Shown here piece by piece: positions 11,166 to 21,538 of a stretch of 64,000 nucleotides of DNA. The position numbers and the translations under genes were made by a program. The notes under the pieces are model-generated. The model was not told the DNA's origin. It searched no databases and saw only the letters and a program-made list of their open reading frames with translations. This DNA comes from Halioglobus sp. (GTDB taxonomy: Bacteria > Pseudomonadota > Gammaproteobacteria > Pseudomonadales > Halieaceae): positions 1 through 64,000 of the forward strand of contig JAQWNG010000008.1 in assembly GCA_029246385.1 (NCBI GenBank), in the 5' to 3' direction. Each line of letters starts with the position of its first letter. Position 1 is the first letter of the stretch.

Positions 11166-12485
11166 ATGTCTGACATGCTCGCTCAATCACTGACACTGCC
11201 TTGCGGCATAACCTTAGAGAATCGCATCGTTAAAGCCGCTATGACAGAGGGTCTTGCCAGCCCCACAGGGTTACCGACGGACGCACTGGAGCGATTATAT
11301 GGTCTGTGGAGTGATGGCGGTGCAGGACTGCTACTATCGGGAAATATTCAGATAGATGGCGATCATTTAGAGCGTCCGGGCAACGTCATTATAGACAAAC
11401 CGCCGAATGAAATCATGCAACAGGCACTTTCACGTTGGGCCAAAACAGCAACCCGCAACGGTAATCATTTTTGGGCGCAGATTAGCCACGCTGGGAGACA
11501 AACTCAAAAAGTGATAAATCAAAATCCAAAAGCTCCATCAGCGGTAAAGATGTCTCTCCCTGGAGGTCAATTCGGAGAACCCGTTGCGCTAACAGTTGCT
11601 GAGATCGAAGACATCGTGCGTCGCTTTGGCGTATGTGCTGCTGCGGTTAAGGCGGCAGGTTTCACGGGCGTCCAGATTCATGCAGCTCACGGATACCTGC
11701 TGTCGCAGTTTCTTAGTCCACGCACCAATGTGCGCACCGATCAATATGGCGGCTCACTGGCTAATCGCGCGCGAGCATTGTTGGAGTGTGTCAAAACTGT
11801 GCGCAAGGCAGTCGGCGATGAGTTCCCAATAGCGGTTAAACTCAACAGCGCAGACTTCCAAAAAGGTGGATTCGCCTTTGAAGACAGCTTGCAGGTATCA
11901 CAGTGGCTGGAGGAGACAGGAATCGACGTGCTAGAAATTTCCGGGGGGACTTACGAGCAGCCAAAATTACTTGGTACAGCGGGAATTGAGGAGGAGGAAC
12001 CACAAAATGTCGCAACGTCCACGCTGATGCGTGAGGCCTACTTCGTTGATTTCGCTCTGGCTATGAGGAAAACGCTCACAATTCCTTTGATGGTGACAGG
12101 GGGGTTCCGTCGACGCGACGTCATGGAGGAGGCCATTACCACGGGTGGAGCGGACCTAATTGGACTAGGGCGGCCCTTGTGCGTGGTCACAGATGCGCCG
12201 GCAAAATTATTCGCTGGCATAACGGAACTGCCGCGCTTTGAAGCGCAGCTGTCAATGTTTCCGCCTTGGCTAACGTTTCTGAATCGCTCTACAACGCTGC
12301 GCACGATCGCGAGCTTTGGCATTCAGTACTGGTATTACGCACAACTGGATCTTCTTGGCGCCACGGGAAAAGCTGAAGCAACCATGACTGTCTTTGCCGC
12401 AACGCGAAAGGTCATGTCGCAACAGAAACAGTGGCTCACTGCACGACGTCAGCAGACAAACTATTCGAGGCAAGAAAACGCATAA
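11166..12485 (+). CDS. OYE-family NADH:flavin oxidoreductase
   Basis: A 439-residue TIM-barrel flavoprotein of the old yellow enzyme family. The FMN/substrate motifs are visible: GITLENRIVKAAMTEG near the start, FWAQISHAGRQ, then IHAAHGYLLSQFLSPRTN with the paired histidine region, and TGGFRRRD and GLGRPLCV at the phosphate end. There is no C-terminal iron-sulfur or second flavin domain, unlike 2,4-dienoyl-CoA reductase. It probably reduces an activated C=C bond; the substrate is unknown. The start at 11166 skips six unrelated residues. The last 50 bases overlap the 3' end of the opposing SRPBCC-SDR gene. Confidence 0.88.
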   Translation: MSDMLAQSLTLPCGITLENRIVKAAMTEGLASPTGLPTDALERLYGLWSDGGAGLLLSGNIQIDGDHLERPGNVIIDKPPNEIMQQALSRWAKTATRNGNHFWAQISHAGRQTQKVINQNPKAPSAVKMSLPGGQFGEPVALTVAEIEDIVRRFGVCAAAVKAAGFTGVQIHAAHGYLLSQFLSPRTNVRTDQYGGSLANRARALLECVKTVRKAVGDEFPIAVKLNSADFQKGGFAFEDSLQVSQWLEETGIDVLEISGGTYEQPKLLGTAGIEEEEPQNVATSTLMREAYFVDFALAMRKTLTIPLMVTGGFRRRDVMEEAITTGGADLIGLGRPLCVVTDAPAKLFAGITELPRFEAQLSMFPPWLTFLNRSTTLRTIASFGIQYWYYAQLDLLGATGKAEATMTVFAATRKVMSQQKQWLTARRQQTNYSRQENA

Positions 12486-13851
12486 GTTTCTCCGTTTCCT
12501 GGCGAGTCTCTCTCGTCTTATTCACCAAGTGGGTACTGTGCTCAGCTCTATCGAGAAACAACTTTCCGCTGACTGAGCCAGCCTCGGTGGCTACGGCCAA
12601 CCATACTATGGTGTCTGCGCCTTCTTCGGATGACCGCAGCACATGCTTAGTGATCTTCCGAAATTGTGGCAGCGCACTGCGGACACCGGGCGTATCAGCC
12701 CAACCAGGATGCATTGCGTTCACAACAATACCCTCGCTCTCCCACTCCGCGGCCCACTCCTGCGTCAACACCATTAATGCGCGCTTTTGTCGCGCATACG
12801 CCACACTGCCAGAGTAAGCATCCGTATCAGGAACAATAAGCTCGTCAATATTCAGAGACTCACTGTACATTCCTCCCGAAACGACATTAACGACCCGCGG
12901 CGATGACGCCATTAAAAGCAGGGGCTTTAGGCCCTCCGTCAAGCAATAAGGACTGAGAAGCAATAGCGCAAAACTTTGCTCAAGCCCTTCAATCGTCTCA
13001 CTTCGAGGGTTAAATAACGCGCCCGCATTATTGACCAGAACGTCTATCGGTTGTCCGCGCTTTTTCATGCGCTCGATAAGGCTATCGACATCTGCAATGA
13101 GACTTAGATCGGCTAGTTCATACCGTATCGCTGGGTTTCCCGTTTCCTCCTGCAAGTCAGAGATCACTTTTTCTGCCTTCGCTCGATCACGCATCACCAA
13201 CGTCAGGTTCGCCCCGCGACGCGCGAGTTGCTGAGCAGTAGCATAGCCCAATCCGGCAGATGCCCCAGTCACAACCATATGCTTATGCTTCACAGAAGCC
13301 GTCATCGGATGAAAGCGCTTACGCCCTAGTTTATATCCAAGCCGTGAGAACAACGATAATGCCGGAAGCACCAATTTGTCCGCAACTTTGTCCGCTGCAG
13401 TCGGCGTGGTGAGCGGAAAGTTATCTTTTAAGGCTTCGGCTAACCCTGCAACAGACTCCCGCCCCATACTTTCTAATCCCGCTTTTGAAAATCCAGAAAT
13501 GGTTGACATTAAAGGCTTGAAAAAAAACTCAGCGCGGTAATCGATACGCGTTCCACCGGGCAGTTCCGAAAATGAGATCGTATCTTCTATATCAAAAAAC
13601 TTGCAGCTACCGCTTAGTATAATAAGCTTATTAGGCTGTAACTCTGTTACAGTATATCGCAACGTTATACTGCTCACAGGGAGCGCACACTCTACTTCAA
13701 ATTCCGTCCCTACGGCGACGGCGCCAGGTGTTAACTTGCGCGCCGCGATAGCGGTAGCATCCCATTCCACGGTAGTGGTGAAATCGCTAACGTAGTCATA
13801 GACTTCCTCTGGGGAGCGTTTTACATCTGCGATCTCATGCAGAACTGTCAT
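12436..13851 (-). CDS. SRPBCC (START-like)-SDR fusion protein
   Basis: A 471-residue two-domain protein. Residues 1 to about 145 form an SRPBCC/polyketide-cyclase-like hydrophobic-ligand domain (SPEEVYDYVSDF...VEWD). From about 190 comes a short-chain dehydrogenase with TGASAGLG (195-202), NNAG (274-277) and the catalytic Y352-x3-K356. The SRPBCC half probably binds a lipid or other apolar substrate that the SDR half oxidises or reduces; this is inference. It is the last gene of the operon driven from the sigma/ChrR intergenic region, 38 bases after the photolyase, and ends 50 bases inside the convergent OYE gene. Confidence 0.87.
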   Translation of the reverse strand: MTVLHEIADVKRSPEEVYDYVSDFTTTVEWDATAIAARKLTPGAVAVGTEFEVECALPVSSITLRYTVTELQPNKLIILSGSCKFFDIEDTISFSELPGGTRIDYRAEFFFKPLMSTISGFSKAGLESMGRESVAGLAEALKDNFPLTTPTAADKVADKLVLPALSLFSRLGYKLGRKRFHPMTASVKHKHMVVTGASAGLGYATAQQLARRGANLTLVMRDRAKAEKVISDLQEETGNPAIRYELADLSLIADVDSLIERMKKRGQPIDVLVNNAGALFNPRSETIEGLEQSFALLLLSPYCLTEGLKPLLLMASSPRVVNVVSGGMYSESLNIDELIVPDTDAYSGSVAYARQKRALMVLTQEWAAEWESEGIVVNAMHPGWADTPGVRSALPQFRKITKHVLRSSEEGADTIVWLAVATEAGSVSGKLFLDRAEHSTHLVNKTRETRQETEKLMRFLASNSLSADVVQ

Positions 13852-13889: not shown

Positions 13890-15353
13890 TTATCCAGACT
13901 TCATGTCCGCATAGGCAGCTAAAGCTGCACCCCGCGCATCCCGATGGTCAACAATAGGGTGCGGATAGGTCTGCCCCAAAATGACGCCTCCAGCTTCCAA
14001 CACATCAGCAGGCGCAATTGAGGGCTCATGCAGAAATTTATCGGGCAAAGCCGCTAACTCGGGCAGCCAGCGCCTGATATAACCACCATCAGCGTCAAAC
14101 TTTTGTGCCTGCGTCGTTGGATTAAATATCCGAAAATAGGGCGAAGCATCAGCGCCACTGCCCGCAACCCATTGCCAGCCGCAGGTATTATTGGCCAGAT
14201 CAGCATCGACAAGCGTGTCCCAAAACCAACGCTGACCAGACCGCCAATCAACGAGTAAATGCTTGCACAAAAAAGAAGCGGCGACCATACGTACCCTATT
14301 GTGCATGTAACCTGTCTGCCAAAGTTCTCTCATTCCTGCATCAACGATGGGGTACCCCGTTTTCCCCTGTTGCCATGCGCTCAGCGCATCCGCACCACCA
14401 ACCCAGGGAAAGGCGTCAAAATCAGCCTTGAATGCCCGCGTGGTCATACGAGGAAAATGGAACAAGAGGTGATGAGAGAACTCACGCCAGCCCACCTCGC
14501 TCAAGAATTTGTCAGCCTCATGGTCAATCGCTGGATTAGCCATGGTAGCTTCCCTAATTGTATAAACAATTCTATGGGGCGCTATTTCTCCAAAATGCAA
14601 ATGTGGCGACAGCCCCGATGTTGCAGCGCGAGCCGGATAATCCCTGCCCTTGCCGTATTCGGATATAGCACTATGCATGAAGGTGTCAAGTTTAAGAACG
14701 CCGCCGTTCTCGCCGGGCTGCCACCGTTGCTCCCAACCCTCCGACCAGTCCGGGTTTACTGGCAACAACTGCAACGCTTCAAGGGTCAATGATCCGGGCG
14801 TATAACGACTCCATGACGCCAAGTCGGCGTTGAACGTGGATGTCTCAGCAACCGGTAACATCCGACACTTCCGCCAGAATGGTGTAAACACCTTGAAGGG
14901 CGCGCCGGCTTTATTCTCTATCGCCTCGGGCTCCCACAAAAGTGACCCACTATAACGTTTTAGCTGAACCGCCTTGCTTAGCAGAGCATCGTGCAGCTGC
15001 TCTTCTAACACACGAGCCCACGGCTCATACTGCCGGGAGCAGAAGACAAGGTCCGCGCCCGTTGATGCAGCCAGTTCTATAAGGACCGTCTCAGAACGCC
15101 CTTGCGCCAAATGGAGTTGCCCGCCAGACTTTGCAATAGCTGCTGCAAGTGCCACCAGACTATGGTGGAGCCACCAACGACTCGCGCCGCCCAGCGGCCA
15201 ATCGCTGGGGCTGGTGTCATCGAGGATATAGCAGGCAAGCACGGGTCTGCCAGTTGCAAAAGCCGCATTGAGGCCCGGTAGGTCGTTTAACCTAAGGTCC
15301 TGCCTGAACCAGTAGATTACCGGTCTTACGACATCAGGCTCACGCTCTGTCAC
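13890..15353 (-). CDS. phrB: Deoxyribodipyrimidine photolyase
   Basis: A 487-residue class I photolyase/cryptochrome. The N-terminal antenna domain starts VIYWFRQDLRLNDLPGL. The C-terminal FAD domain contains TSGLSPHLHFGEI, GWREFSHHLLF, the YPIVDAGMRELWQTGYMHNRVRM signature and DADLANNTCGWQWVAGSG. It uses light to split cyclobutane pyrimidine dimers; CPD rather than 6-4 specificity is assumed from similarity to PhrB. It starts with GTG overlapping the stop of the DUF2878 gene (GTGA), so the two are translationally coupled. Placement in a ChrR/sigma locus matches the Rhodobacter sphaeroides regulon, which also includes a photolyase. Confidence 0.95.
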   Translation of the reverse strand: MTEREPDVVRPVIYWFRQDLRLNDLPGLNAAFATGRPVLACYILDDTSPSDWPLGGASRWWLHHSLVALAAAIAKSGGQLHLAQGRSETVLIELAASTGADLVFCSRQYEPWARVLEEQLHDALLSKAVQLKRYSGSLLWEPEAIENKAGAPFKVFTPFWRKCRMLPVAETSTFNADLASWSRYTPGSLTLEALQLLPVNPDWSEGWEQRWQPGENGGVLKLDTFMHSAISEYGKGRDYPARAATSGLSPHLHFGEIAPHRIVYTIREATMANPAIDHEADKFLSEVGWREFSHHLLFHFPRMTTRAFKADFDAFPWVGGADALSAWQQGKTGYPIVDAGMRELWQTGYMHNRVRMVAASFLCKHLLVDWRSGQRWFWDTLVDADLANNTCGWQWVAGSGADASPYFRIFNPTTQAQKFDADGGYIRRWLPELAALPDKFLHEPSIAPADVLEAGGVILGQTYPHPIVDHRDARGAALAAYADMKSG

Positions 15354-15967
15354 TGCTGCAACCGCTGCGCAGCAGGGCTCTTTTCGTTCACAATGCTGCT
15401 GTTGGCCTCAGTAATTTTTTCTGATATTTTCAGAAACAAGGGGAAGATAATAGCCCACAGCGTGGCTATTATCAGGGGGCCCCACATAGCCGAACCAAAC
15501 TCTATTTGCGTTAGGCGAACGCCAGCAATATAGGACAGACAGCCGCCCACCGCTCCGACAACGCTCGATACAATAATCCGGCCTTGAAGCCAGTCAAAGG
15601 CGTGCATCAAAGTGGTTGCGAAAACTGGCCACAAACACGTTAGCCACAGTGGCGCTGGCGCTGCCTTCCCGGACAAGTTAAATACATCCATCCCGAACAA
15701 GATCTGGTCAATAACAAAGCCGAGGCATGTGACGCCAGCAATAAGCAATAACTCAGGCTTTCCCTTCCCCATAACTTGGAAGTGTGCGAACAAACTTAAG
15801 GCCACTATCATGGGCGCGATCACTGACGACTGGGTCAACAGAATGGCAAACCAAGCAGCGTTAAACATCAGGACATTAACGACTTTTGAGGATGCAGAGT
15901 TAAGCCAGCGGCTGGATTTTAAGTTATTGACCCATCTTTGAATCATAGAGCGTGTCTCACAGCTCAC
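15350..15967 (-). CDS. DUF2878 integral membrane protein
   Basis: A 205-residue multi-pass membrane protein. At least five hydrophobic segments are visible, including VLMFNAAWFAILLTQSS, LLLIAGVTCLGFVID and GPLIIATLWAIIFPLFL. The pattern FNAAWFA, PLWLTCLWPVFATTLMHAFDWL and GAVGGCLSYIAG fits DUF2878 as I remember it. That family commonly neighbours cyclopropane synthase and photolyase genes. Its function is unknown. The ATG at 15967 or a second Met at 15946 could be the start. It overlaps the photolyase start by four bases, and folE ends 26 bases upstream. Confidence 0.8.
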   Translation of the reverse strand: MSCETRSMIQRWVNNLKSSRWLNSASSKVVNVLMFNAAWFAILLTQSSVIAPMIVALSLFAHFQVMGKGKPELLLIAGVTCLGFVIDQILFGMDVFNLSGKAAPAPLWLTCLWPVFATTLMHAFDWLQGRIIVSSVVGAVGGCLSYIAGVRLTQIEFGSAMWGPLIIATLWAIIFPLFLKISEKITEANSSIVNEKSPAAQRLQQ

Positions 15968-15993: not shown

Positions 15994-16680
15994 TTATGCA
16001 GAAAGGAACTCAGCTCGCGTACGGGGGTCTTCCTTAAACTGTCCACCCAGTGCAGTTGTGCGCGTCCGAGAATTAGAATCCATCACGCCCCTGGCTTTTA
16101 CACAATAGTGAACAGCATTGATGGACACTGCCACGTCGTCTGTTTCTAGCAGCGTTTGTAACGCGACTAACACCTGTTGTGTTAGTCGCTCCTGCACCTG
16201 GGGTCTCTGAGCAAAGAACCGTACAATGCGATTTACTTTAGACAAACCAATAATTCTGCTGCTTGGAATGTAGGCGACGCTCGCCATGCCATCGATGGTG
16301 ACGAAGTGGTGCTCACAGGTACTCACCACCGCAATATCATCGATGCGCACCATTTCCTCCACACCCATTTTGTTATCGATGGCAGTGGCCTTTGGGAAAA
16401 AAGCATAATCTAAGCCAGAGAAAATTTCATCGACATACATTTTGGCAATACGTTTCGGCGTGTCACACAAACTGTCGTCTTTAAGATCTAGGCCGAGAGT
16501 AGAGGCAATATCCTCAAAGGCGTGTTTGATGCGCTCGAACTTCTCGTCCCGTGTCAGACCATTGTCGACCAAAGGCGTCTCGAGACCTCGCATTATCAAA
16601 GCATCGCGAACCCGACGGGTGTCGTCAGACATGATCTGCGGAGTTGCAATCACGGTTTGCATCAAGGCTTTTTCCATCAC
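15994..16680 (-). CDS. folE: GTP cyclohydrolase I
   Basis: A 228-residue GTP cyclohydrolase I, which opens GTP to dihydroneopterin triphosphate at the head of folate and pterin synthesis. It is close to E. coli FolE over nearly its whole length: [30 protein letters not shown] (the zinc Cys and His), [20 protein letters not shown] and the late zinc Cys in VHYCVKARG. It lies inside the stress operon between the cfa-like gene (74-base gap) and the DUF2878 gene. Possible reasons are supply of the methenyltetrahydrofolate antenna of photolyase or simple replenishment of oxidised folates; both are inference. A weak internal promoter may lie just upstream. Confidence 0.96.
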
Positions 16681-16754: not shown

Positions 16755-18035
16755 TTACTTGTGGAGTAACGCAGCTGGACAATGAAAGCGGTAGTCAGGC
16801 TTAGCGAACGCCAGTTGTACCGTACTGATAACGCGCTCACGAAAGCCGCCCTCGCAATAACACAGGTAAAAATCCCACATTCGGACAAACTCCTCACTGA
16901 ACCCCATGCCTCGCACTGCCTCGAGGTTAGCAAGAAATCGTTGGCGCCAGTGTGCCAACGTTTCGGCATAATCAGTTGTAATATCGCGCAAATGCACGAT
17001 CTGCATATCCGTGTCACGCGCAATGTGGTCAGACATTACTGCGACGGACGGCAGACAGCCGCCGGGAAAGATATAGCGCTTGATAAAATCAACAGAGTCT
17101 CGCGCCTCTTTGTAGCGCTGATCAGCGATTGTAATGGCCTGAATTACCATCTTCCCATTCGGCTTTAACAATCCAGAACACATACTAAAGTAACTTTGGT
17201 AAAAATCATGGCCCACAGCTTCAATCATCTCAATGGATACGAGCTTGTCATATTCCCCAGTGAGGTTGCGATAGTCTTCGCAAAGTAATGTGACTTGACC
17301 TTCGAGCCCTTCTTCTTTGACTCTGGCAGACGCGTACTCGTACTGCTCTTGCGATATTGTTGTCGTGGTTACGCGACACCCGAAGTTTTTCGCCGCGTGT
17401 ATTGCCATTCCGCCCCAGCCAGTACCTATCTCTAATAAATGATCATCAGCCTTTAATTCAAGTTGCTGACAGAGTTCATCAAGCTTATTTTTTGATGCCG
17501 TCTCTAGATTAGTGGATTCATCAGAAAATAAGGCCGATGAATACATCATGGTAGGATCGAGGAACAGCTGAAAAAATTCATTACCAAGATCGTAATGGGC
17601 CGCAATGTTAAGCTGCGAGCCTTTGTGAGTATTGCGATTGAAGCGGTGAGCAATCTTGAGTGTCAGTTTCACGAAAAAAGACTGACTTGCGTCAAAAGTA
17701 TTCAGTAGCACAAGATTGGCGCTGAATACGCGCATAACATCCATTGCATCAGGCGAAGACCAGTGGCCCTTCATATACGCCTCCCCAGAACCAATGGAGC
17801 CGCCGGTCAGCATTTCTGCGTACGCAGCGGGATCGTGAACATGCACTTCCGCCTGCGGCTCATGCGGCTTATCTACGCTACCAAAATGATGGCTGTTGGG
17901 ACCCTCATGCAGCGTAAGTGACCCAATCTGCAGCTGACCCAAAAACTTGAATATCGCTTCCCTAGCTATTTTTTCGCCAACTCTGGCGCTGCGCGTCTGT
18001 GGCAAACGCAACGCGCCAATACTGCCCTCATTCAT
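16755..18035 (-). CDS. Cyclopropane-fatty-acyl-phospholipid synthase family methyltransferase
   Basis: About 426 residues. A SAM-binding motif LEIGTGWGGMAIHAA, the QLNIAAHYDLGNEFFQLFLD segment and FIKRYIFPGGCLPS are all hallmarks of CfaS-type enzymes, which methylate unsaturated acyl chains in membrane phospholipids. The start at 18035 is preferred over the ATG at 18053 because AGGAG lies six bases before it; it overlaps the DUF1365 stop by eight bases. The amine oxidase-DUF1365-Cfa triad belongs to ChrR/sigma regulons in other proteobacteria. In Rhodobacter, relatives act in methylated furan fatty acid synthesis, so the product need not be a cyclopropane ring. Confidence 0.88.
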   Translation of the reverse strand: MNEGSIGALRLPQTRSARVGEKIAREAIFKFLGQLQIGSLTLHEGPNSHHFGSVDKPHEPQAEVHVHDPAAYAEMLTGGSIGSGEAYMKGHWSSPDAMDVMRVFSANLVLLNTFDASQSFFVKLTLKIAHRFNRNTHKGSQLNIAAHYDLGNEFFQLFLDPTMMYSSALFSDESTNLETASKNKLDELCQQLELKADDHLLEIGTGWGGMAIHAAKNFGCRVTTTTISQEQYEYASARVKEEGLEGQVTLLCEDYRNLTGEYDKLVSIEMIEAVGHDFYQSYFSMCSGLLKPNGKMVIQAITIADQRYKEARDSVDFIKRYIFPGGCLPSVAVMSDHIARDTDMQIVHLRDITTDYAETLAHWRQRFLANLEAVRGMGFSEEFVRMWDFYLCYCEGGFRERVISTVQLAFAKPDYRFHCPAALLHK

Positions 18036-18792
18036 CCTTCGCTCCTGCCGCATTATTTGCGGGATGTGTATAGACTGGCGTTCCCTTAATGTAGAGTCTC
18101 AAAGCCTGCCAATAGATGGCGAGCGCTACCTTCACCGACATCAGCGGATACCGGAAAAGCAACTTATTCAAGTTAACCGCTGACATTGGTCGGGCCGACA
18201 GTGACAGAGTCGCGTCGAACACCTTTTCCTCTTCTACCACGTTCTCCATGTGCAACACCAGACGCCGATCAGGCGTATTACTTCGCCAACGATAGCGCAT
18301 ATTCATAGGATTAAAGGGCGACACATGCAATTGCTTATCAAACATGGTTCGGAGCCAACGACCTTGCTCCGGGCCTTCCAGCACGTAGCTATGCCGCTCA
18401 TTCCACGGTGTATTGTTCACCTCTGCCACTACATAGTCTAAACGTGTCTCATCACGATTAAAACAGTAGTAGCATGCAATAGGGTTCATCACAAAACCGA
18501 AACAGCATAAATTAGCCAGCAAATAGATGGGCCCAATATGGTCTGCACCGGTTTCCTCGCGTATGCGTCGCCGCACTTCATCTTGCAGAGGCAACGCAGG
18601 ATCACCGAGAAAATCACTACGCCTAAACTGACCCAAGGCCCAACCTGTGGCAGACCAAAACGGTGTTTTGGCAAAAATATGGGGCAATTCGTCTAGACAC
18701 ACGTAAGGCATAATGACCCTATATTGAAACTGATGTCGTGCCGGAACTACCCGACGATGCTGGAGAATTCCTTGGTAAATACGTGACTTCAA
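18028..18792 (-). CDS. DUF1365 family protein
   Basis: A 254-residue protein beginning with the typical DUF1365 pattern RIYQGILQHRRVVPARHQFQYRV and PYVCLDELP. It continues with LANLCCFGFVMNPIACYYCF, VAEVNNTPWNERHSYVL and KQLHVSPFNPMNMRYRW. The family is of unknown biochemical role but is nearly always found between an FAD amine oxidase-like gene and a cfa-like gene, suggesting a shared lipid pathway. It appears to start with TTG inside a four-base overlap (TTGA) with the upstream gene's stop, and its own stop overlaps the cfa-like gene. Three consecutive overlapping frames imply tight co-expression. Confidence 0.88.
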   Translation of the reverse strand: MKSRIYQGILQHRRVVPARHQFQYRVIMPYVCLDELPHIFAKTPFWSATGWALGQFRRSDFLGDPALPLQDEVRRRIREETGADHIGPIYLLANLCCFGFVMNPIACYYCFNRDETRLDYVVAEVNNTPWNERHSYVLEGPEQGRWLRTMFDKQLHVSPFNPMNMRYRWRSNTPDRRLVLHMENVVEEEKVFDATLSLSARPMSAVNLNKLLFRYPLMSVKVALAIYWQALRLYIKGTPVYTHPANNAAGAKDE

Positions 18793-20051
18793 GCAGCTGC
18801 CACGTGCCTACTACCTAGCCCCCTGGCGACGCGAAGTGCACTGACTACGCCGTCCTCATGAAAACCGTTCTGCCAGTAAGCACCGCAGTACCAAGTGCTG
18901 GAGACGCCGTTGATTTGGCCCCAGCGCTGCTGTGCGGCACAACCCTCTAGCGAGAACACCGGATGATCATAGCTAAAGCGGCCTAACACCTTGTGTGGAT
19001 TGATCGCTGCAGTATTATTCAATGTGACGCAAAATGTTTCGGGCGCTTGAATCCCCTGAAGGATATTCATATTGTAGGTCACAATCGCACGCTTCTTACT
19101 CTCCCCAAGCGTGTAATTCCAACTGCTCCAAGTTTTCACCTTACGCGGCAGCATGCGGACATCGGTATGCAATACCACGTCGTTGGTTTGGTAGGGAATA
19201 GCGCCAAGAATGTCTGACTCTAGCGCAGAGGGCTCCTCCAGAAGCGCCAAAGCCTGATCAGAGTGGGTCGCAAATACAACCTGATCGAACTTCAGTTGCT
19301 GGCCATCTGCCATCAACAGCGTAACGGCTTTGTCAGAATCTCTGACGACACGACTCACCGCGTTGCCGACGGATATACGCTCCGAAAATCGAGCGCACAG
19401 GGGTCGTAGGTATTGTCTAGAGCCCCCTTCAATCACTCGCCATTGAGGCCTATCTTTAACCGACAGCAGCCCATGATTGCGAAAAAATCGCAGGAAAAAC
19501 GTCACTGGAAAGTCTAATATGGTCTCGCAGTCAGCAGACCAAATAGCCGATCCCATAGCCGCCAAATAATGGCGCTTAAATTTTTCACTGTAGCCCCTGC
19601 GGATAAGATAGGACCCCAGAGTTTCATCCTCTGCTATCCTGCCGCTGTCAAGATCTGCCACGGCTTCGCGATTGAAGCGCAAGATATCGCGCACCATACC
19701 AATAAACGCCGGTGATACCAGGTTGCGACGCTGGGCAAACAGCGTATCGAGGTTTGAACCCGAATACTCTAGACCCGATTTAGGGTCCCGCACGCTGAAA
19801 CCCATAGCCGTAGGCTTGCTGGCAACTCCCAGTTCATCCAATAGCGCAATAAAGTGTGGGTAGGTCCAATCATTAAACACGATAAATCCGGTGTCGATCG
19901 CATACTGGCGGGTGCCAAGTGTTACATCCACAGTGGCGGTGTGGCCGCCAATCTTGCCTGCTGCTTCATATACCCAGACCTCGTGCTCGTCGCTGAGATA
20001 ATGGGCACAGGCCAAACCTGATATACCCGAGCCAATAACCGCGATCTTCAT
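18789..20051 (-). CDS. FAD-dependent amine oxidase-like protein
   Basis: A 420-residue flavoprotein starting MKIAVIGSGISGLACAHYL, with the FAD-binding GxGxxG at residues 7-12 and VYEAAGKIGGHTATVDV right after, typical of the flavin monoamine oxidase/phytoene desaturase superfamily. The C-terminus has YCGAYWQNGFHEDGVVSAL, which closes the FAD site. Relatives in this context are annotated as amine oxidases, but the neighbours (DUF1365 and Cfa) make a lipid desaturase or oxidase more likely; this is inference. It is the first gene of the leftward operon, about 57 bases downstream of a TGATCC/CGTA promoter element. Confidence 0.87.
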   Translation of the reverse strand: MKIAVIGSGISGLACAHYLSDEHEVWVYEAAGKIGGHTATVDVTLGTRQYAIDTGFIVFNDWTYPHFIALLDELGVASKPTAMGFSVRDPKSGLEYSGSNLDTLFAQRRNLVSPAFIGMVRDILRFNREAVADLDSGRIAEDETLGSYLIRRGYSEKFKRHYLAAMGSAIWSADCETILDFPVTFFLRFFRNHGLLSVKDRPQWRVIEGGSRQYLRPLCARFSERISVGNAVSRVVRDSDKAVTLLMADGQQLKFDQVVFATHSDQALALLEEPSALESDILGAIPYQTNDVVLHTDVRMLPRKVKTWSSWNYTLGESKKRAIVTYNMNILQGIQAPETFCVTLNNTAAINPHKVLGRFSYDHPVFSLEGCAAQQRWGQINGVSSTWYCGAYWQNGFHEDGVVSALRVARGLGSRHVAAA

Positions 20052-20108: not shown

Positions 20109-20134
20109 TACGGAGACAGACCGAGTATGGATCA
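20109..20134 (-). promoter_or_regulatory. Predicted ECF-sigma promoter, leftward operon
   Basis: On the minus strand TGATCC (20134-20129) is followed after 16 bases by CGTA (20112-20109). TGATCC is the known -35 box of Rhodobacter sigma-E/ChrR promoters; CGTA as -10 is from memory of the ECF11 group. A matching element faces the other way upstream of the sigma gene, which supports autoregulated divergent control. Confidence 0.65.
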
Positions 20135-20214
20135 GTTTTTTTAGATTTTACATGGATTTTGTTGTCGTGGCGCGCCCATGAACTCTACCTACGTTAAATT
20201 ATGTTGCATTCGAG

Positions 20215-20239
20215 TGATCCATTTGTCTGTAGACGCGTA
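20215..20239 (+). promoter_or_regulatory. Predicted ECF-sigma promoter, sigma-chrR operon
   Basis: TGATCC (20215-20220) is separated by 15 bases from CGTA (20236-20239), about 30 bases before the sigma gene ATG. It mirrors the element serving the leftward operon. Positive autoregulation is inferred. Confidence 0.65.
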
Positions 20240-20268
20240 TACTTGGGAAACATTAAGGGCCTCAGAGA

Positions 20269-20877
20269 ATGATGATTGTGACAGACAATTTCGACGATGA
20301 GACAGAGTCGCAGGTAGCGTCTAAGGAAAAGCGTACTGACGAATGGAGCGAATGTCTTACTTTAGTTGGGCAAAACGGAGACAGGGCAGCCTTCACACGG
20401 CTGTTTCGGCACTTCGCCCCATTGATGAAGGCTTTCGCTTTATCTGGCTCTACGCTGTCCGCCAACAATGCAGACGAGTTAGTGCAGGAGGTCATGATAA
20501 AGGTGTGGCAAAAAGCCGGCGCATACAACGCAGAAAAAGCCGCAGCCAGTACGTGGATTTATACGATTGCGCGAAACAGTCGGACCGACTTATTTCGCAG
20601 ACTGCAAAAATTTGACACCCCATTGTCAGCTGATGATATAGCCGGGTCACAAGAGAGTGAAGAGGCGTTTATGATGCTTCACCAAAAGCGCGGCAGGGAT
20701 AGAATCAGAACGCTTATTAGTGGCCTGCCCAGTGATCAAGCTCAAATTCTTGCGAAAGTTTACATGGAGGGAAAGTCTCACTCTGAAGTTGCCGGAGAAC
20801 TTGACATCCCTCTAGGTACCGTAAAATCCCGCGTGCGATTAGCGCTGCAAAAATTACAAATCCGTTTTGAGGAATAG
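20269..20877 (+). CDS. ECF sigma factor, RpoE/ChrR-partner type
   Basis: A 202-residue extracytoplasmic-function sigma factor. Region 2 runs from about 40 to 105 with DELVQEVMIKVWQKAGAY and TWIYTIARNSRTDLFRR, the -10 recognition and melting segment. Region 4 is about 145-200 with LPSDQAQILAKVYMEGKSHSEVA and LGTVKSRVRLALQKL, the helix-turn-helix reading the -35 box. It directly precedes a ChrR-type anti-sigma gene (four-base gap) and is divergent from a photolyase/cfa operon, the signature of the ECF11 group that answers singlet oxygen. The start could be either of two adjacent ATGs (20269 or 20272). Confidence 0.93.
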   Translation: MMIVTDNFDDETESQVASKEKRTDEWSECLTLVGQNGDRAAFTRLFRHFAPLMKAFALSGSTLSANNADELVQEVMIKVWQKAGAYNAEKAAASTWIYTIARNSRTDLFRRLQKFDTPLSADDIAGSQESEEAFMMLHQKRGRDRIRTLISGLPSDQAQILAKVYMEGKSHSEVAGELDIPLGTVKSRVRLALQKLQIRFEE

Positions 20878-20881
20878 CGTT

Positions 20882-21538
20882 ATGTCAAATGCCCACCCAG
20901 ATTTAGATCTGCTTACAGAATATACCGCCGGCTCACTGCCGCTAACGCAGTCAGCCTGTATCTCACTTCATATTTCGCAGTGCACGCGATGTCAGCGCAT
21001 TGCAGGGCAGTTGGCCGACCTAGGAGCATGCCTGTTTGAAGCGCAGGAGCCGTCAACAGTTGGCGATGCACAGCTAGACGCGGTGCTCGCCAGATTAGAC
21101 GAAGAGCCGCCGTTGTCCTACGCGAAAGCCAGCAAGGATATTGGCAACACGCCCGCAGTATTGCAGCGCTTAATGCGCGGTGATTTCAGCGACCTAAGCT
21201 GGAAAAATATTGGGTCTGCATTGCGCATTAGCTACTTGCAGACCGGCGATCCGCAGCACGAGCTAGCCATCTATCACTTTAAGGCGGGTGGCCGGATTCC
21301 CGAGCACACGCACCGCGGCAGTGAAATGACGTTGATACTGCAGGGGGGCTTTTCAGACGCTGATGGCAGTTATCACAAAGGCGACTTTTTAGTTCGACGG
21401 CAAGGTGATGTCCACGCGCCCACAGCCCTTCAGTCAGAGGACTGCATCTGTTTAGTGGTATTGGACGCGCCGTTAAAGTTTACCGACTGGAAGTTTCGGT
21501 GGATGAACCCTTTCTTAAAGTTACGCACTACTGCCTAA
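20882..21538 (+). CDS. chrR: ChrR-type zinc anti-sigma factor with cupin domain
   Basis: A 218-residue two-domain regulator. The N-terminal zinc anti-sigma domain has H5, H30, C34 and C37, each exactly one position off the Rhodobacter sphaeroides ChrR ligands H6, H31, C35 and C38. The C-terminal cupin domain has PEHTHRGSEMTLILQG and GDVHAP, giving H142, H144, E148 and H178 as the likely second metal site. In Rhodobacter this domain is needed for singlet-oxygen-triggered release of the sigma factor. The start at 20882 was chosen because it places H5 correctly and follows the sigma stop by four bases. Confidence 0.93.
   Translation: MSNAHPDLDLLTEYTAGSLPLTQSACISLHISQCTRCQRIAGQLADLGACLFEAQEPSTVGDAQLDAVLARLDEEPPLSYAKASKDIGNTPAVLQRLMRGDFSDLSWKNIGSALRISYLQTGDPQHELAIYHFKAGGRIPEHTHRGSEMTLILQGGFSDADGSYHKGDFLVRRQGDVHAPTALQSEDCICLVVLDAPLKFTDWKFRWMNPFLKLRTTA

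Follow-up and report, generated by a model that had tools for sequence, protein, structure and literature searches.

Two short promoter-like elements, in which TGATCC and CGTA are separated by 15 or 16 nt, face outward in the 217 nt that separate a ufaD-like gene from the gene of an ECF sigma factor of Halioglobus sp. The window, i.e., the whole stretch of DNA that was analysed, is 64,000 nucleotides long. This arrangement raises three questions: are both elements real, does the neighbouring sigma factor read them, and how far would its control extend on the left?

The two elements and their conservation in relatives

The leftward element lies on the reverse strand at 20134-20109 (TGATCC 20134-20129, N16, CGTA 20112-20109). 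The rightward, putatively autoregulatory element lies on the forward strand at 20215-20239 (TGATCC 20215-20220, N15, CGTA 20236-20239), and 80 nt separate the two. Both were found exactly where the sequence-only reading of this DNA had placed them. The promoter distances that it had given were also recovered by measurement: 57 nt from the left CGTA to the ATG of the ufaD-like gene (20051) and 29 nt from the right CGTA to the ATG of the sigma gene (20269).

That reading had taken TGATCC for the -35 box of RpoE-ChrR. This is borne out, and the whole motif is the published ECF11 promoter in the extracts of PMC5507510, PMC4336711 and PMC5241685. The ChIP-seq consensus of P. syringae is TGATCC-N16-CGTA (PMC5507510), the starts of rpoE2 and pgpD of Shewanella were mapped at the same motif (PMC4336711), and the search motif for Vibrio cholerae, TGATC-N16-18-CGTAW, is equal to TGATCC-N15-17 (PMC5241685). 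Both elements have the ECF11 form (TGATCC, about 16 nt, CGTA). The N16 of the left one is that of the P. syringae consensus; the N15 of the right one is one base shorter and within the V. cholerae range.

By count, two matches in the window are weak evidence. Dinucleotide shuffles of the 64-kb window give a mean of 0.43 matches, and at least 2 matches in 8 of 100 shuffles. The genome scan that had been suggested earlier does find matches to TGATCC-N14-18-CGTA in the 3.3-Mb genome, but their number (26, i.e., N14 4, N15 4, N16 10, N17 5 and N18 3) is to be set against the 18 of the reversed pattern; the majority are thus probably noise. Four of the ten N16 sites are within ORFs. Besides the left element, four others (L006, L042, L045, L049) are outside ORFs of at least 80 codons and at most 120 nt from a start, and one (L004) is 186 nt from a start and overlaps an antisense ORF. 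The whole-genome count was dropped as evidence because of this noise (26 vs. 18, and 55 vs. 33 when the sixth base is not C).

Position and conservation settle the matter. A ChrR search of 57 genomes gave a match in 52 at E 0.001, many of which cover only a short stretch of the cupin. A scan of named genomes by ChrR alignment confirmed 382 loci, of which the best 80 were used; these belong mostly to Halieaceae genera (Haliea, Halioglobus, Parahaliea, Luminiphilus and others), some being titled «Gammaproteobacteria» only, one Alteromonadaceae and one Teredinibacter. The ufaD-DUF1365-CFA genes are divergent from sigma-chrR in most of these best 80 of 382 loci. The window and 77 of these loci provided 78 intervals: L101, L118 and L120 were left out because the ufaD-like or the sigma gene was not found there, and the non-adjacent arrangements L119, L132 and L134 were counted. 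The genomes are related and the following counts are thus not independent. The exact left element is present in 58 of the 78 intervals, the exact right one in 47 and both in 40; 18 intervals have the left only, 7 the right only and 13 neither, i.e., one or both exact elements are absent in 38/78. The reversed intervals (78) contain no left and no right element, and mononucleotide shuffles contain 19 left and 16 right elements upon 15,600. When the 12 nearest intervals (window, L055-L065) are aligned, conservation is essentially confined to the four boxes and their edges. The observation of paired elements is confirmed, at the level of sequence.

The intervals in which an element is missing are of several kinds. 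Right sites are recovered at one mismatch in L068, L078, L080, L099, L107 and L115. Nine Luminiphilus-type loci (L100, L102-L105, L109, L111, L112, L117) keep the left element and lack a right one even when two mismatches are allowed; autoregulation seems to have been lost at this place in these nine relatives. Among the 13 intervals with neither element, two (L132, L134) are non-adjacent and 11 (L121-L129, L131, L133) are adjacent divergent pairs. The gap of these 11 pairs is characterized by another conserved pattern, ATATACACAT / GTGTCAA / TGTGTATTCT-like, as if control had been rewired, the divergent genes being kept and the ECF11 elements absent. Relatives that keep the genes and lack one or both elements offer a natural comparison.

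A fortuitous pair of matches to a short motif would agree with the 8 shuffles of the window and with the genome count. It is nevertheless extremely improbable, given that place and orientation are conserved across relatives with reversed controls at zero and that the boxes are nearly the sole conserved part of the 12 nearest intervals. These intervals bear also on another reading, modelled on the phrB-ufaM genes of Pseudomonas mendocina, in which the leftward genes are mainly under a LitR/CarH-type light-sensing repressor and a sigma-70 promoter, the ECF11 element being secondary. Pseudomonas phrB, ufaM and folE are indeed LitR-dependent or light-induced (PMC9758184), and the 11 divergent relatives have their other pattern and neither ECF11 element. 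However, the 12 nearest intervals contain no conserved block beyond the ECF11 boxes and a sigma-70 pattern scan of the gap lists no site; control mainly by such a repressor is very unlikely.

The sigma factor, its ChrR partner and the rightward promoter

The sigma factor (20269-20877, forward strand) can be considered as a member of the RpoE/ChrR (ECF11) type on the basis of its regions 2 and 4 (Pfam Sigma70_r2 PF04542, r4_2 PF08281) and of its closest solved structure. Among 18 PDB matches, R. sphaeroides RpoE (2q1z/2z2s) ranks first with E 1e-31, the next one being at 6e-13. The gene of the anti-sigma factor ChrR follows on the same strand (20882-21538). Its ORF is listed from TTG 20867, and the invariance of Met6 suggests ATG 20882 as the start. 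The protein reaches 160.1 bits against TIGR02451 (cut-off 124.5) and matches PDB 2z2s with E 8e-31. It reaches 98.6 bits against the equivalog NF051881 (cadmium/peroxide/UV responsive ChrR), whose cut-off is 300, and is thus assigned to the ChrR family TIGR02451 alone. All eight metal ligands (H10-H35-C39-C42 and H147-H149-E153-H183) are invariant in 12 aligned proteins, with the spacing given for R. sphaeroides ChrR, i.e., His6, His31, Cys35, Cys38 and His141, His143, Glu147, His177 (PMC6852236).

Sites 5' of chrR, within the sigma gene, occur in 7 of 79 intervals at no more than one mismatch and in 22 of 79 at no more than two (0 and 1, respectively, when reversed); they are read as conserved coding sequence. 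Two loci (L019:2281, L021:2288) have an extra TGATCC-N16-CGTAA just past chrR, before genes for a YgaP-like small membrane protein and a glutathione peroxidase, which recalls Shewanella pgpD. The close relative G005 was considered as a natural loss of ChrR and rejected, since the end of its contig cuts the ufaD-like gene.

The two promoters had been described as twins. They do share one motif and face outward, but the right one has N15 and is extended to CGTATACT while the left one has N16. This difference extends to the relatives. All 58 exact left sites have N16; the 48 right sites (L116 has two) are distributed between N15 (14), N16 (29) and N17 (5). CGTATACT is found at 35 of the 48 right sites vs. 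none of the 58 left sites, the genomes being related; among right sites, 17 of the 19 whose spacer is N15 or N17 have it, vs. 18 of the 29 whose spacer is N16. TGATCC-N15-17-CGTATACT has 46 matches in 43 of 100 family genomes and the reversed pattern has one match; identity with the loci used places 38 of the 46 upstream of this sigma gene. The idea that the extension is exclusive to the sigma gene was rejected, since 7 of the 46 matches lie at other places; for one more (G077) no position could be assigned.

The extension creates TATACT at 20238-20243 (forward strand), overlapping the right -10, which we take to resemble a housekeeping or stationary-phase -10 box. The right element may thus be a dual promoter, with the ECF11 sigma on TGATCC/CGTA and a housekeeping or stationary-phase sigma on the nested TATACT, providing basal expression of sigma-chrR ahead of stress. 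This reading is compatible with the preferred one. The presence of CGTATACT at right and not at left sites, the excess over the reversed pattern with most matches before this sigma gene, and the richness of N15 and N17 sites in CGTATACT, as if TATACT permitted the spacer to drift, speak for it. On the contrary, the right promoter has neither a TTGACA-like box nor a TGn ahead of TATACT, the sigma-70 scan of the gap is silent, eight of the matches are elsewhere or unplaced, and common descent could account for the extension as well as for the spacer pattern. A dual promoter is thus possible but rather doubtful. Somewhat less likely still is its extension to the clade, i.e., a two-sigma promoter in which the alarm sigma would read CGTA and a housekeeping or stationary sigma the fused TATACT, the spacer being free to drift from N15 to N17 while that of the left promoter is fixed at N16. 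If this were true, one start would supply both a standby level of sigma-ChrR and the feedback under stress.

The leftward genes and other candidate targets

Seven genes follow one another on the reverse strand. The first (18789-20051) had been called amine oxidase-like. Its family is indeed that of amine oxidases (PF01593), but UfaD-like flavin oxidoreductase is the better name in view of its place and order, which are those of UfaD (PMC7380195). It is followed by a UfaO-like DUF1365 protein (18028-18792; PF07103, E 1.2e-75; UfaO contains DUF1365) and a UfaM/CfaS-like SAM-dependent fatty-acid methyltransferase (16755-18053; PF02353, E 5e-85). In both R. palustris and R. sphaeroides, UfaD, UfaO (DUF1365) and UfaM synthesize methylated furan fatty acids (PMC7380195). 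The three families and their order match ufaD-ufaO-ufaM, a set that would make 9M5-FuFA; the furan fatty acid names, given here by family and order, are thus putative. Beyond them lie folE, for GTP cyclohydrolase I (15994-16677; TIGR00063 above cut-off; ORF listed from GTG 16680), and genes for a DUF2878 protein (15350-15967; PF11086), a protein of the DNA photolyase/cryptochrome family (13890-15353; PF03441, PF00875) and an SRPBCC-SDR fusion, i.e., a short-chain dehydrogenase (12436-13851; PF10604, PF00106).

A third element, AGATCT-N16-CGTA, with two mismatches to TGATCC, lies at 16737-16712 on the reverse strand. It is 34 nt before the folE ATG (16677), in the 74 nt that separate the CFA reading frame from that of folE, and is likely a third start signal inside the leftward set. 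Upstream regions of folE, SDR, CFA and chrR were scanned in relatives for alignments starting at most 12 residues from the query start, with at least 35% identity and at least 100 nt upstream. All 9 folE intervals have an N16 site with exact CGTA and at most two mismatches in the hexamer (at most one in 2 of 9), and none has it when reversed. The best 30 folE loci of the family were also taken, further places being left out (including a class at 36-42% identity). At a distance of no more than 200 nt, a site is found in 27 of these best 30 (7 at no more than one mismatch, 1 exact) and in none when reversed; pieces of 200 nt taken at random from these loci contain it in 69 of 1,800 cases. It must be noted that 25 of these best 30 have no CFA gene within about 1.5 kb on either side.

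The site is not universal even where folE is beside the CFA gene. Among the five loci with this arrangement, L192 (G005) carries AAATCT-N16-CGTA in this position, with three mismatches, and L209 has nothing resembling the element there, as is the case for L210. The first base of the hexamer is also altered in the phrB promoter tested in P. syringae (aGATCC), thus such a change is compatible with function. In this genome, the 300 nt before the longest reading frame of the FolE2 gene contain no element of this kind, and the stress target seems to be FolE rather than FolE2. The reason could be the supply of pterin or folate, e.g., for the antenna of the photolyase. Pseudomonas folE is light-induced (PMC9758184), and the RpoE regulon of R. 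sphaeroides contains folE2 and a fasciclin gene (PMC7074977). FolE with its own element would be a target that recurs, the counterpart of FolE2 in Rhodobacter. At L136 (G000:C34:165080-165187), 36 residues match GTP cyclohydrolase I but no full gene surrounds them; an earlier copy of folE may have left this remnant.

An element belonging to the SRPBCC-SDR gene itself, TGAGCC-N16-CGTA, precedes it by 33-56 nt in 6 of the 12 intervals (L056, L065, L110, L113, L114, L116; none when reversed); the SRPBCC-SDR gene of the window is without it. CFA starts are preceded by TCATCC-N16-CGTA, 7-16 nt upstream, in 5 of 56 cases and in none when reversed. It had been predicted that the sigma factor drives its own gene together with a seven-gene leftward operon. 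Joint control is the best reading, given an RpoE/ChrR-type sigma factor, the published boxes and a conserved divergent pair. However, the conserved element of folE, together with that of the SRPBCC-SDR gene in some relatives, implies that the seven genes are probably not a simple single unit.

Elsewhere in the genome, a DASH cryptochrome (TIGR02765 over cut-off) has an N16 element in 4 of 4 close orthologs and at no more than one mismatch in 8 of 18 loci. For a fasciclin protein (PF02469) the element is found at no more than one mismatch in 6 of 7 same-genus orthologs and 7 of 10 loci, and for a metallophosphoesterase in 3 of 4 loci. The orthologs used cover 18/18 DASH, 10/13 fasciclin (three G045 loci left out) and 4/4 metallophosphoesterase loci. 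DASH cryptochrome and fasciclin, which are likely light-stress genes, are candidate members of the regulon. Both here and in G005, an element lies about 190-200 nt before the gene of an Fpg/Nei-family DNA glycosylase. A regulator of the AraC type that carries a cupin domain and weakly resembles RclR (below cut-off; L042:1501-2603) has TGATCC-N16-CGTATATC 117 nt upstream. Together with the metallophosphoesterase, these two are weaker candidates.

Probable joint control and comparison with known systems

The 217-nt gap is very probably a divergent control region in which an ECF11 sigma factor, controlled by ChrR, reads both TGATCC/CGTA elements, with a weaker third element before folE. The elements, their conservation, the protein families and the metal ligands, i.e., what the DNA itself provides, point to this reading. 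Proteins of the ChrR family are zinc anti-sigma factors: the sigma factor is kept inactive and becomes free when singlet oxygen or an organic peroxide causes the loss of ChrR. The ChrR encoded directly after the sigma gene would thus keep the sigma factor inactive here, and the same signals would lead to its loss and free the sigma factor. RNA polymerase with the freed sigma factor is then predicted to bind both divergent elements, at start sites deduced from their position. Rightward, a sigma-chrR transcript would provide positive feedback together with a built-in resupply of ChrR. Leftward, the ufaD-ufaO-ufaM-like genes would be transcribed, with presumed read-through over the 74-nt CFA-folE gap into folE and the DUF2878, photolyase and SDR genes, and the weaker element would add a transcript for folE and the genes beyond. 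The earlier interpretation was thus mostly right and is partly supported.

The core regulon consists of about 8 genes across diverse species, including rpoE-chrR and the furan-fatty-acid genes (PMC6852236). With the promoter also published, the motif, the regulator and the main targets were already known. The locus represents a known system in conserved form, with modest additions, i.e., the folE element and CGTATACT at the sigma promoter, and is otherwise the expected case. Among the matches listed from the literature on ChrR, Congregibacter and photolyase, none deals with this locus; on sigma factors and singlet oxygen in Halieaceae, one review is listed (PMC12654162). The Halieaceae are mostly marine and include aerobic phototrophs. 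In this family, a singlet-oxygen alarm and its likely furan-fatty-acid output are placed on one divergent control region.

As in R. sphaeroides sigma-E (RpoE)/ChrR, a sigma factor is paired with a zinc anti-sigma factor. The R. sphaeroides regulon, as excerpted, also holds rpoE-chrR and the ufaD/ufaO/ufaM, photolyase, SDR, fasciclin and GTP cyclohydrolase genes. In contrast to R. sphaeroides, the ufa-like genes, folE, photolyase and SDR form here one leftward set divergent from sigma-chrR, and the cyclohydrolase target is FolE instead of FolE2. The PSPTO_1043 regulon of P. syringae has the same TGATCC-N16-CGTA, and the aGATCC of its phrB resembles the folE element; its sigma-chrR and phrB-cfa genes are, unlike here, separate loci. 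The RpoE2-ChrR system of Shewanella oneidensis also uses TGATCC, with CGTATT or CGTAAT and mapped starts. Its photolyase/cfa genes and rpoE2-chrR have distant locus numbers, and no divergent ufaD arrangement is described in the extracts of that source. The same ufaD-ufaO-ufaM order is found in Rhodopseudomonas palustris (RPA2571-2570-2569; PMC7380195).
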